A stretch of 64,000 bases of DNA from Sphingomonas sp. NFR04 (GTDB taxonomy: Bacteria; Pseudomonadota; Alphaproteobacteria; Sphingomonadales; Sphingomonadaceae). Each line of letters starts with the position of its first letter. Position 1 is the first letter of the stretch. This document shows positions 6,243 to 11,826 of the stretch, in pieces. The notes below the pieces were generated by a model. That model was not told the origin of the DNA. It searched no databases and saw nothing but the letters and a program-made list of their open reading frames with translations. The DNA is taken from NCBI RefSeq assembly GCF_900114095.1, contig NZ_FORV01000001.1, forward strand, positions 1,054,001 through 1,118,000, given 5' to 3'. Made by a program: the position numbers and the translations under genes.

Positions 6243-6668
6243 TCAGGCCAGTTCCCACTCCAGCGCGATCTGGGCCTTGAGCAGCTTGGAGACCGGGCAG
6301 TTCGCCTCGGCGCCCTTGGCCAGCGCCTCGAACTGCTCTTCGCTGATGCCGGGCACTTCGGCGCGCAGCTTCAGGTCCGAACGGGTGATGGTGAAGCCGT
6401 CGCCGTCCTGCTCCAGCTTCACGGCTGCCGTCGTCTCGAGCGTGCCGTCGCTGAACCCCGCCTGGGCAAGCGCGAAGCTGAGCGCCATGGTGAAGCAGCC
6501 GGCATGCGCCGCCGCGATCAGCTCTTCCGGGTTGGTACCCTTCTCGTCGCCGAAGCGGGTGTTGAAGCTGTAGGGAGTCGCCTCCAGCACGCCCGAGGGG
6601 CTGGTCAGCTGGCCTTTGCCGGTCTTGCCGAAGCCGGTGTAGCGGGCGGTGGCGGTGCGGGTGGTCAT
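6243..6668 (-). CDS. osmC: OsmC-family peroxiredoxin
   Basis: The protein has 141 residues. OsmC/Ohr proteins reduce organic hydroperoxides with two cysteines. Both are visible: one in AHAGCFTMAL (about residue 58) and one in NCPVSKLL (about 124). GTNPEELIAAAHAGC is the classic OsmC block. The spacing and C-terminus fit the OsmC rather than the Ohr branch. It is flanked by terminators on both sides, so it is monocistronic. Confidence 0.9.
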   Translation of the reverse strand: MTTRTATARYTGFGKTGKGQLTSPSGVLEATPYSFNTRFGDEKGTNPEELIAAAHAGCFTMALSFALAQAGFSDGTLETTAAVKLEQDGDGFTITRSDLKLRAEVPGISEEQFEALAKGAEANCPVSKLLKAQIALEWELA

Positions 6669-6720: not shown

Positions 6721-7131
6721 TCACTTGCACGTGACGTTGTTGCGATCGATCGAACGACCCGCCGCTGCGCCGGCTGCGGCGCCGAGCAGCGTGCCCAGCG
6801 TCTGCGATCCGCCCGGCGCGATGACGTTGCCGAGCAGGCCGCCCGCTACGCCGCCGACGATCAGGCCGGTCGTGCCGTCGTTGCGGCGGCAATAATAACG
6901 GCCATCCTGTCCGCGATAGACACGGTCGTTCTGCGACAGGCGGCGCTCGCGGGCCCGCGAATTCTCGCGATAATAGCGGTCGGCATAATAGCCGTTATAG
7001 GCCGGGTCCGGGCGGTTATAGTCGTACTGGCGATAGCCGCCGCCGCCGGCATAGCCGGGGCCGTAGCCGCCTTCGGCGCAGCCGGAAACCAAGGTCGCCG
7101 CAGCAACCATGCTCAGAGCGAAGATGCGCAT
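6721..7131 (-). CDS. Glycine-zipper lipoprotein (paralogue 1 of 3)
   Basis: The protein has 136 residues. The chosen start has GGAGAGAGA just upstream. The signal MRIFALSMVAAATLVSGC ends in the lipobox VSGC. A Tyr/Arg/Gly-rich middle (about 20-75) leads to the motif RYYCRRNDGTTGLIVGG and a two-helix glycine zipper (GGVAGGLLGN... GTLLGAAAGAAAG) ending in a C-terminal Cys (NNVTCK). Genes at 43944 and 51157 share the same YC(R)...DGTTG + zipper + terminal Cys layout. Its probable place is the envelope; its function is unknown. Confidence 0.8.
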   Translation of the reverse strand: MRIFALSMVAAATLVSGCAEGGYGPGYAGGGGYRQYDYNRPDPAYNGYYADRYYRENSRARERRLSQNDRVYRGQDGRYYCRRNDGTTGLIVGGVAGGLLGNVIAPGGSQTLGTLLGAAAGAAAGRSIDRNNVTCK

Positions 7132-7217
7132 CGGGTCTCTCTCCTGATCCATGTTGATAAGCGTGGGCAATGCGCGGCCGCGCGGAAGGTTGCGCGGCCG
7201 TGCCGATCCGGGGAGGA

Positions 7218-7709
7218 TCAGGAAGGCGCCGCATCGTTGCGGCGGAGCTCGTCGGCCTGGCCGGCGACCAGCGTCGGGGCCGAACCGCCTGCCAGCGCCG
7301 GCGCAAAGGCCTCGCGCTCGTTGGCCGGGATCGATGCGGTGGGATCGGGGCGGAACTGCTCGATCGCGCGCTGGCTGCCATCGGGGTGGCTGTCACCCAT
7401 CAGGTCGGTCGGCACGGTGCCCGGCTCGGAAGCGCCACGGCGGCTCCACAGCGTACCGAGGGCAATGGCGCCGATGGCACCCAGTCCGGCGGCGGCGATG
7501 GCCGCGATGCCGGTCCGTCCCAGCGACGAACGCTTGCGGACCTTGGTCGCCGGCGCGGCTGCCTTGGGGGTGCGCTTCGGGCGCGCCTTGGGGGCGGGCT
7601 TGGCGGCGGCGGGCTCGGCCTTGGTGTCGGCGGCTGCAGCGGTGGTCGCGGCCTTGGGCGTGCGCTTGCGCGGCGTGGGGGTCTTGGGCGTCTTGCTGGC
7701 GGTTGCCAT
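7218..7709 (-). CDS. Ala/Lys/Pro-rich basic protein with one membrane helix
   Basis: The protein has 163 residues. AAAGGAGA precedes the ATG. Residues 1-65 are low-complexity and basic with repeated KRTPKAA and PKAT motifs, like the histone H1 tail. A hydrophobic helix (TGIAAIAAAGLGAIGAIALG, about 67-86) follows, then an acidic/neutral C-terminus. This suggests a membrane-tethered, perhaps DNA-contacting, stress protein, but that is inference. A consensus EcfG-type promoter lies 30 bases upstream. A second Ala/Lys/Pro-rich gene without the helix is at 45830. Confidence 0.65.
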   Translation of the reverse strand: MATASKTPKTPTPRKRTPKAATTAAAADTKAEPAAAKPAPKARPKRTPKAAAPATKVRKRSSLGRTGIAAIAAAGLGAIGAIALGTLWSRRGASEPGTVPTDLMGDSHPDGSQRAIEQFRPDPTASIPANEREAFAPALAGGSAPTLVAGQADELRRNDAAPS

Positions 7710-7738
7710 CGAAATCTCCTTTCGGTTACGGCACGGTC

Positions 7739-7764
7739 AACGGGCCGGGATGCGGGCGTGTTCC
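7739..7764 (-). promoter_or_regulatory. EcfG-type (general stress) promoter
   Basis: On the minus strand the sequence reads GGAAC, 17 bases, CGTT, a perfect match to the alphaproteobacterial EcfG sigma-factor consensus GGAAC-N16/17-CGTT. The start codon of the Ala/Lys/Pro-rich gene follows about 30 bases downstream with a good ribosome binding site between. Confidence 0.7.
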
Positions 7765-8245: not shown

Positions 8246-8326
8246 ACGGCGTCTCCGCAGGAAGTTGCCGCGCCCTACCCTTGCAGCCTGGATTTTGTTC
8301 CGCGACGGCGTCGCTCGCCATAGCCA

Positions 8327-8427
8327 CTCCCCTTCAGGGGAGGGGTTGGGGTGGGGCATGACCGACAAGGGCAGTACCGGTGGATCCGTCATGCCCCACC
8401 CCAAACCCCTCCCCTGAAGGGGAGGGG
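8327..8427. repeat. Intergenic inverted repeat, family A
   Basis: The two arms (8327-8363 and 8388-8427) are near-perfect reverse complements with one indel. Each contains its own small palindrome CTCCCCTTCAGGGGAG followed by GGGGTTGGGGTGGGGCATGAC, so the element can fold as one long cruciform. It lies between a lipoprotein gene and glnD. Related elements occur elsewhere in the window. Confidence 0.85.
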
Positions 8428-8498
8428 CTTAAGAGAGAAATGCATCCCCCCTCCCTTCCCACGTGAACTTCCCCCCAAATCCTCCTATCTGACTCCCC

Positions 8499-11259: not shown

Positions 11260-11643
11260 ATGCCGGTAGTGGGGCTGGGCGGCTATTTCTTCCGTGCGCA
11301 GGATCCGGATGGTCTGAAGAGCTGGTACCAGGAGATGCTGGGCGTCGGCGGCGGCTGCGGTACCGATGCCAGCGGGCAGGCGAGCCCGTGGTTCTGGTAT
11401 CCCGAGCCCGGCGGCGTGGTGTTCCAGCCCTTCCCGGCGGACAGCAGCTATTTCGCGACGGACAAGCAGGTGATGCTCAACCTGCGGGTGATCGATCTCG
11501 ACGGGCTGCTGGAGCAGCTCAACGCCGCGGGCGTGGCGATCGAGACGCGGGCGGAGTGGGACTCGCCGGAGACCGGGCGGTTTGCGCGCATCCATGATCC
11601 GGAAGGCAATCCGATCGAGCTGTGGGAAGCACCGGCGGAGTAG
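11260..11643 (+). CDS. VOC/glyoxalase-fold protein
   Basis: The protein has 127 residues. It reads as a vicinal-oxygen-chelate fold with two beta-alpha-beta-beta-beta units: GYFFRAQDPDGLKSWYQEMLG at the N-terminus and the closing HDPEGNPIELWE motif (metal-ligand Glu) at the C-terminus. VOC proteins include glyoxalases, dioxygenases and resistance proteins, so the substrate cannot be named. It starts 14 bases after glnD and may be cotranscribed. Confidence 0.8.
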   Translation: MPVVGLGGYFFRAQDPDGLKSWYQEMLGVGGGCGTDASGQASPWFWYPEPGGVVFQPFPADSSYFATDKQVMLNLRVIDLDGLLEQLNAAGVAIETRAEWDSPETGRFARIHDPEGNPIELWEAPAE

Positions 11644-11708
11644 GTCACCCCTCGCCAAGCGCAGGTCCTTCGCATCGGCAGGTGGACACACGTCCGCCCC
11701 ACCCCCTT

Positions 11709-11806
11709 CGTCATTCCCGCGAAGGCGGGAATCGATTTGCCAGGAGGCTGGAGGAAGGAACCGCGGCTTCAGCGCCAATGGATCCCCGCCTTCGCGGGGA
11801 TGACGG
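11709..11806. repeat. Intergenic inverted repeat, family B
   Basis: The left arm CGTCATTCCCGCGAAGGCGG and the right arm CCCGCCTTCGCGGGGATGACG are reverse complements, each with an inner GCGAAGGC-type palindrome. The linker contains CAGCGCCAATGGATCC, also seen in the copy at 18024. It lies between convergent genes and could act as a bidirectional terminator. Confidence 0.8.
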
Positions 11807-11826
11807 CTAGGGGCGGCGCCCTACGC

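Follow-up and report, generated by a model that had tools for sequence, protein, structure and literature searches.

A Sphingomonas-centred family of predicted bitopic membrane proteins preceded by a conserved EcfG-type promoter

The 163-residue protein encoded at 7218..7709 on the minus strand of the window (the whole stretch of 64,000 nucleotides analyzed here) belongs to an unnamed and uncharacterised family of predicted bitopic membrane proteins, delimited by its ORF and by homologue and profile searches, that is centred on Sphingomonas and very probably controlled by EcfG. The promoter of this family is conserved far beyond chance.

An EcfG-type promoter ahead of the 163-residue protein

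The EcfG-type promoter was located at 7739..7764 on the minus strand, with the -35 element GGAAC at 7764-7760 and the -10 element CGTT at 7742-7739 separated by a 17-nucleotide spacer. The box lies 29 bp ahead of the ATG at 7709, which is preceded by a ribosome-binding site (AAAGGAG, 7716..7722, minus strand) 6 nucleotides ahead of it. Judged by the motif alone, this match is weak evidence and near chance: GGAAC and CGTT with spacers of 16 to 18 nucleotides occur three times in the window against 1.17 expected, 14 of 100 shuffles gave three or more such matches, and the whole genome holds 20 exact copies of GGAAC-N17-CGTT compared with 14 of a reversed control pattern. Motif counts by themselves gave no separation from chance, and we turned to conservation.

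We searched 118 homologue loci, 111 from the genus of the window and seven from other genera of its taxonomic family, with the window's own copy excluded. The stretch searched comprised the 740 nucleotides ahead of the conserved protein motif and was shorter in three loci, at contig ends. A box was considered strict when it read GGAAC-N16/17-CGTT, relaxed when it read GGAAC-NGTT or GNAAC-NGTT, and placed when an in-frame ATG followed 5 to 60 nucleotides on. Strict boxes appeared in the sense orientation in 77 of the 118 stretches versus one for the reversed motif and none in antisense, and GGAAC combined with NGTT gave 101, three and five, respectively. The loosest pattern, GNAAC-NGTT (104 sense, four reversed), discriminates less because it also matched 20 times in antisense; only two placed boxes rest on it. 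Placed boxes were identified in 102 loci (73 strict, 27 GGAAC-NGTT and the two GNAAC-NGTT), and 95 of the 102 are distinct as whole 25/26-mers. In contrast, among 837 control ORFs taken mechanically from the same loci (at least 200 aa, first ATG), some of which are surely no genes, the 80 nucleotides upstream of the first ATG contained a strict box in two cases and a relaxed one in three. A chance match, as the modest excess of exact copies over reversed ones in the genome might suggest, is therefore extremely improbable, and it is through its placement and its conservation that the site stands far beyond chance. The earlier note had called the GGAAC-N17-CGTT match exact and well placed and had attributed it to EcfG. 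Letters and coordinates do agree (minus strand, 7764-7739), AAAGGAG and the ATG follow downstream, the box recurs in the matching place in the homologue loci, and the attribution is strongly supported by the 102 of 118 loci versus two of 837 controls, together with the transcript data from Sphingomonas melonis Fr1 described below.

The -10 elements of the 102 placed boxes read CGTT in 75 loci, GGTT in 21, TGTT in five and AGTT in one; the search pattern was NGTT, so CATT fell outside it. The distance from box to ATG was 8-9 nucleotides in 23 loci and 24-43 in the remaining 79, a distribution that is partly built in because the start codons were picked from the box. In the 23 loci of the first group (L100, L101, L104 and L108 among them), the -10 box ends so close to the ATG that little or no leader would remain on the EcfG transcript; one of this group, L180, may have been assigned too early a start.

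Sixteen loci had no placed box. Seven of these carry TGAAC-N16/17-CGTT 52-55 nucleotides ahead of the start, and in L216 it is the gene immediately upstream that has a strict box in front of it. No convincing box was found in the stretch searched in the other eight (L156, L170, L173, L176, L177, L192, L194 and L215). L176 has a GCAAC-N16-CGTT 500 nucleotides upstream, near its glycine-zipper gene, and L192 sits at a contig end; for L156, L170, L173, L177, L194 and L215 neither a contig end nor an alternative box accounts for the absence.

The regulators are encoded in the same genome. Contig C14 carries, side by side, the genes for an ECF sigma factor considered to be EcfG (L218:2877-2137), PhyR (3902-3087), NepR and an HWE/HisKA_2 kinase, the sigma factor being assigned by its profile hits (PhyR_sigma2 included) and its place beside phyR. 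A GGAAC-N16-GGTT sequence was located about 136 nucleotides ahead of the assumed nepR start. Beside this module we also noted a small lipoprotein-like ORF, entericidin-like by eye (L218:6179-6313), with a strict EcfG-like match about 226 nucleotides upstream (L218 5928-5952); 19 of 200 shuffles also gave a match.

Published regulons bear on the family. The motif reported for the EcfG regulon of S. melonis Fr1 is GGAAC-N17-20-GTT (PMC6599016), which includes the 17-nucleotide spacer of the window, whereas that spacer is one nucleotide longer than in the GGAAC-N16-CGTT motif of the general stress response (GSR) of Sphingopyxis granuli TFA (PMC7083833). EcfG regulons contain many "hypothetical proteins", as Table 1 of PMC6599016 illustrates; entry #1060 of that table is one of them, with the box GGAACAAGCGGTCGCAGCCTGTGGTT, a distance of 41 and a log2 change of -3.9 in the ecfG mutant. 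Within three mismatches, this box was found in only two of 295 genus genomes, G098 (two mismatches) and G146 (three), and both copies stand 41 nucleotides ahead of a family member's ATG (L199 and L200). Because its box recurs at this position, #1060 is, judging by its promoter, very probably a member of the family under EcfG.

Architecture, distribution and neighbours of the family

The best conserved part of the protein lies at its C-terminus. Residues 97-149 (7263..7421, minus strand), predicted to be periplasmic, carry a motif defined by alignments A1 and A2 and by a profile, GTVPTDLMGDxHPDGSxRA...FRPDPTA..P..ERE...PAL....APTLV. Across 16 aligned sequences, D-L, R-A, F-R-P-D, A and P-A do not vary. 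The motif is preceded by a single predicted transmembrane helix at residues 67-91 (7437..7511, minus strand) and by a basic, low-complexity tail at residues 1-66 (7512..7709, minus strand) that is predicted to be cytoplasmic. The best hydrophobic 19-residue window is at residue 67, and the AlphaFold2 model places a helix at 67-91 with low pLDDT. Mean pLDDT is 54, and the helix was the only element obtained, at a confidence insufficient for a fold search; the model thus lends no support to a folded function of the C-terminal motif. Seventy-two residues follow the predicted helix. Of 102 members, 96 carry a net positive charge ahead of the helix and 71 a net negative charge after it, which leaves 31 without net negative charge there. 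An N-in/C-out topology fits this positive stretch before the helix and negative stretch after it, and we predict the window protein to be a single-pass inner-membrane protein in this orientation. In the last 60 residues of all 118 members, lysine is scarce compared with arginine (93 K, 662 R).

A single-sequence search detected homologues in 104 of 151 sampled genus genomes (G080 and G086 gave two matches), and the C-terminal-motif profile detected one match each in 111 of the 151, the window's own genome included. The named homologue loci among the matches listed, at least eight, are all from Sphingomonas and include S. trueperi, S. pituitosa and S. azotifigens. At the level of the taxonomic family, A1 reached 12 of 298 genomes (six of 96 genera) and A2 nine of 249 (four of 96 genera); at order level seven of 147 genomes had a match, all seven in the window's genus. 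As the number of first-look candidates scored per genome was limited in these reach counts, the absences outside the genus are weak, and a Sphingobium plasmid does carry one family member. On this plasmid, from Sphingobium sp. TomTYG65 (L243:1795-2674), the diverged member is the second of two tandem genes, the first encoding a 167-aa hypothetical protein; a strict EcfG box stands ahead of the first gene and neither protein matches Pfam. The diverged member in L216 is likewise in tandem behind another gene, with the strict box before that first gene.

The window protein matched no Pfam family at E<=1, and against NCBIfam it gave one weak match (13.6 bits against a cut-off of 100). Eighteen members compared with Pfam gave two weak matches, in one member each, and with NCBIfam weak matches only, the best (E 0.0036) in a single member. 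The C-terminal profile had no match at E<=1 among PDB sequences. In seven pairwise comparisons dN/dS ranged from 0.015 to 0.33 over tail, helix and C-terminus.

Two genes recur next to the family gene. In the window these are a glycine-zipper protein gene at 6721..7131 (Pfam PF05433, E=1e-07) and an OsmC-family peroxiredoxin gene at 6243..6668 (TIGR03562, E=1.5e-56), both on the minus strand. Glycine-zipper relatives were identified in 62 of the 118 stretches, always on the strand of the family gene (62/62), 50 of them downstream and 12 upstream, and 27 of the 50 downstream genes lie within 700 nucleotides of the family start; none was found in the other 56 stretches. OsmC relatives were present in 23 stretches, again all on the same strand (23/23), 22 downstream and one upstream, and both neighbours occurred together in 21. 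These counts are lower bounds, since 12 of the 118 stretches do not reach 8 kb. Relatives of the window's upstream lipoprotein gene and of glnD appeared in three and five of the 118 stretches. Aside from the family box, no GGAAC-N15-18-NGTT box was detected in the upstream regions of the 62 glycine-zipper or the 23 osmC genes, and the GNAAC version was found in one and four of them, respectively. Because the neighbours have no GGAAC box of their own, read-through from the EcfG promoter fits wherever the gene order allows it, and the gene of the 163-aa protein is possibly co-transcribed with the glycine-zipper and osmC genes. The 86-nucleotide gap to the next gene contains a GC hairpin at 7176..7199 on the minus strand, with an 8-bp stem, an 8-nucleotide loop and no T-run. 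OsmC peroxiredoxin is among the EcfG-dependent genes of S. melonis Fr1 (PMC6599016) and the GSR-dependent genes of S. granuli (PMC7083833).

Two repeats were observed elsewhere in the window. One, at 8322-8429, is a 35-bp inverted repeat, 89% complementary, whose arms are 38 nucleotides apart; it lies ahead of glnD, overlaps the listed lipoprotein ORF in the 5' part of the latter, and looks like a mobile or REP-type element. At 11590-11810 the translated frames show a HSREGGN...RLRGDDG-type repeat, typical of dispersed repeat elements in Proteobacteria.

The basic N-terminal arm

The earlier note had described a basic, membrane-anchored product that joins a histone-H1-like tail to a membrane helix and could link DNA to the membrane. 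As a prediction, the basic and membrane-anchored character held up, given 18 K+R versus 2 D+E in the tail, the hydropathy and the modelled helix at 67-91. The H1 likeness stood for composition alone. The 66-residue tail is rich in K, R, A, P and T, and it contains more lysine than arginine (11 K, 7 R) while the K:R ratio is 0.63 in four reference proteins of the window. The window protein matched none of the Pfam families, and among 18 members scanned a single one hit the HC2-type H1 profile (E=0.019). In the open-licence papers searched, no report united histone H1-like, Sphingomonas and membrane, and none dealt with a membrane-anchored nucleoid-associated protein with histone H1 in bacteria.

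The distribution of the tail differs from that of the promoter and the C-terminal motif. We defined the tail as the residues before the most hydrophobic 19-residue window, counted it as long from 40 aa and 20% K+R upwards, and based the statistics and the tree on the 102 loci with a box, leaving out the 16 boxless ones. Tail length ranges from 0 to 167 aa with a median of 23.5; long basic tails are present in 18 members, tails of 30 aa or less in 75 and tails of 10 aa or less in nine, and the K+R fraction averages 0.28 over the tails of at least 15 aa. A tree of the helix and C-terminus (98 columns), with many unresolved forks and a bootstrap that had not converged, unites 11 of the 18 long-tail members in one clade (support 99/87). 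All 11 members of this clade have the tail, and it includes the nearest relatives of the window in the set. At least seven changes of the long-tail trait are required on the tree, or two when the starred branches alone are counted. The long tail therefore characterises one clade and otherwise occurs in scattered cases.

This pattern bears on the proposal that the family is a membrane-anchored nucleoid protein, whose tail would bind chromosomal DNA and whose helix would hold that DNA at the membrane under stress. The tail composition, the excess of lysine over arginine against the background of the reference proteins and the preferential conservation of K and R in the tail agree with it, and there is a precedent in the mycobacterial Rv3852 (PMC8233713). 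Against it, a long basic tail is restricted to 18 of 102 members while the promoter and the C-terminal motif are more widespread, the window protein has no H1 family match, and charge alone cannot tell DNA from ribosomes or lipids. We regard a nucleoid protein of this kind as unlikely. With 75 of 102 tails at 30 aa or less and the best conserved part beyond the helix, DNA tethering is unlikely as the function of the whole family; for the long-tail members it is a live hypothesis.

The tail could instead be a mere positive-inside topology signal that lengthened through neutral expansion of low-complexity sequence, the genome being GC-rich, with all function residing in the C-terminus. The shorter tails are basic too, as the mean K+R fraction and the 96 net positive members indicate, the length is highly variable, and tail dN/dS (0.04-0.33) exceeded that of the C-terminus (0.015-0.15) in six of seven comparisons. 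However, these tail values argue against neutrality as well, and so do the retention of the tail in 11 of 11 members of the main long-tail clade and the excess of lysine over arginine. Moreover, in eight close homologues the basic residues are preferentially invariant: 13 of 18 K/R positions do not vary, compared with 17 of the 47 other positions (p=0.0096, one-sided Fisher test uncorrected for relatedness). We consider a pure topology signal rather unlikely. Because the basic residues are preferentially kept in the window's clade, the tail may have a role of its own there.

Proposed mechanism and comparison with known systems

In the PhyR-NepR-EcfG switch, stress leads to phosphorylated PhyR, which draws NepR off EcfG. 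We propose that RNA polymerase carrying EcfG would then transcribe the gene of the 163-aa protein from a start a few nucleotides downstream of CGTT, and that transcription may continue through the glycine-zipper and osmC genes. As a single-pass inner-membrane protein, the product would have its N-terminus in the cytoplasm and its C-terminus in the periplasm. The working part shared by the family would be the C-terminal motif, short and otherwise disordered; it most likely has its role in the envelope at times of stress, perhaps with the glycine-zipper neighbour. In the window's clade a short topogenic N-terminus would have lengthened into a lysine-rich arm whose charge is under selection. This arm is most likely in electrostatic contact with a polyanion at the inner membrane face, for which nucleoid DNA, ribosomal RNA and anionic lipid are candidates. 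Taken as a whole, this explanation, namely a genuine EcfG promoter, a bitopic envelope protein and a charged polyanion-contacting arm in the window's clade, is in our judgment more likely than not. The eight loci of 118 with no convincing box, the lack of a glycine-zipper relative in 56 of the 118 stretches, its upstream position in 12 of 62 cases and the stable hairpin in the gap count against it, as do the 31 of 102 members without net negative charge beyond the helix and the poor structure model. A bolder version for the window's clade, a stress-induced bridge whose H1-like arm would hold the nucleoid or ribosomes while the periplasmic motif grips an envelope partner, seems to us unlikely; if true, the general stress response would pin the chromosome or the translation machinery to the envelope.

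The bacterial H1-like proteins of the chlamydial HC2 type are soluble nucleoid proteins. They have K/A/P-rich low complexity in common with the window tail and differ in that the window protein does not match the HC2 profile of Pfam. Rv3852 of Mycobacterium tuberculosis, reported to stay DNA-bound while membrane-tethered, is a nucleoid protein at the membrane that combines a membrane helix with a DNA-binding part (PMC8233713). The helix that such a protein requires is predicted in the window protein by hydropathy and by the model, but that of Rv3852 is described at the C-terminus (PMC8233713), whereas in the window's family a conserved stretch follows it.

YqjD of E. coli is an RpoS-dependent, membrane-anchored protein that binds ribosomes via its N-terminal region (PMC6389858), and by analogy the basic arm could tether ribosomes to the inner face of the membrane in stressed cells. 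Control by a general-stress sigma factor, a single helix and a cytoplasmic N-terminus are shared with YqjD, and ElaB, YqjD and YgaM are all small single-helix inner-membrane proteins under such control (PMC6389858). Their anchor is C-terminal, however, whereas 72 residues follow the helix of the window protein and the conserved stretch of the Sphingomonas family lies beyond it. The window protein has no Pfam match and none of the 18 members matches the YqjD/ElaB-type family or YgaM. A ribosome tether of this kind appears quite improbable.

The published stress regulons can be compared as well. The commonest other -10 boxes in S. granuli TFA are TGTT, CATT and GGTT, and TGTT and GGTT are common to its GSR and the family described here; the spacer is 16 in the S. 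granuli TFA motif and 17 in the window (PMC7083833). The box of S. melonis Fr1 #1060 (PMC6599016) is two to three bases off those found 41 nucleotides upstream of the G098 and G146 members. These presumed relatives of #1060 (L199 and L200) have only eight residues before the helix and no H1-like tail, unlike the window protein. The family is a new and uncharacterised one of the EcfG regulon, very probably under EcfG control, with two separable parts, a family-wide C-terminal motif and a basic arm of which just some members have a long version. A hypothetical protein of the EcfG regulon now becomes a defined family, with a conserved EcfG-type promoter in most members and often a glycine-zipper gene nearby. 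Its gene offers a concrete target for a knockout, and the family probably corresponds to a gene whose strong dependence on EcfG has been measured before, in S. melonis Fr1.
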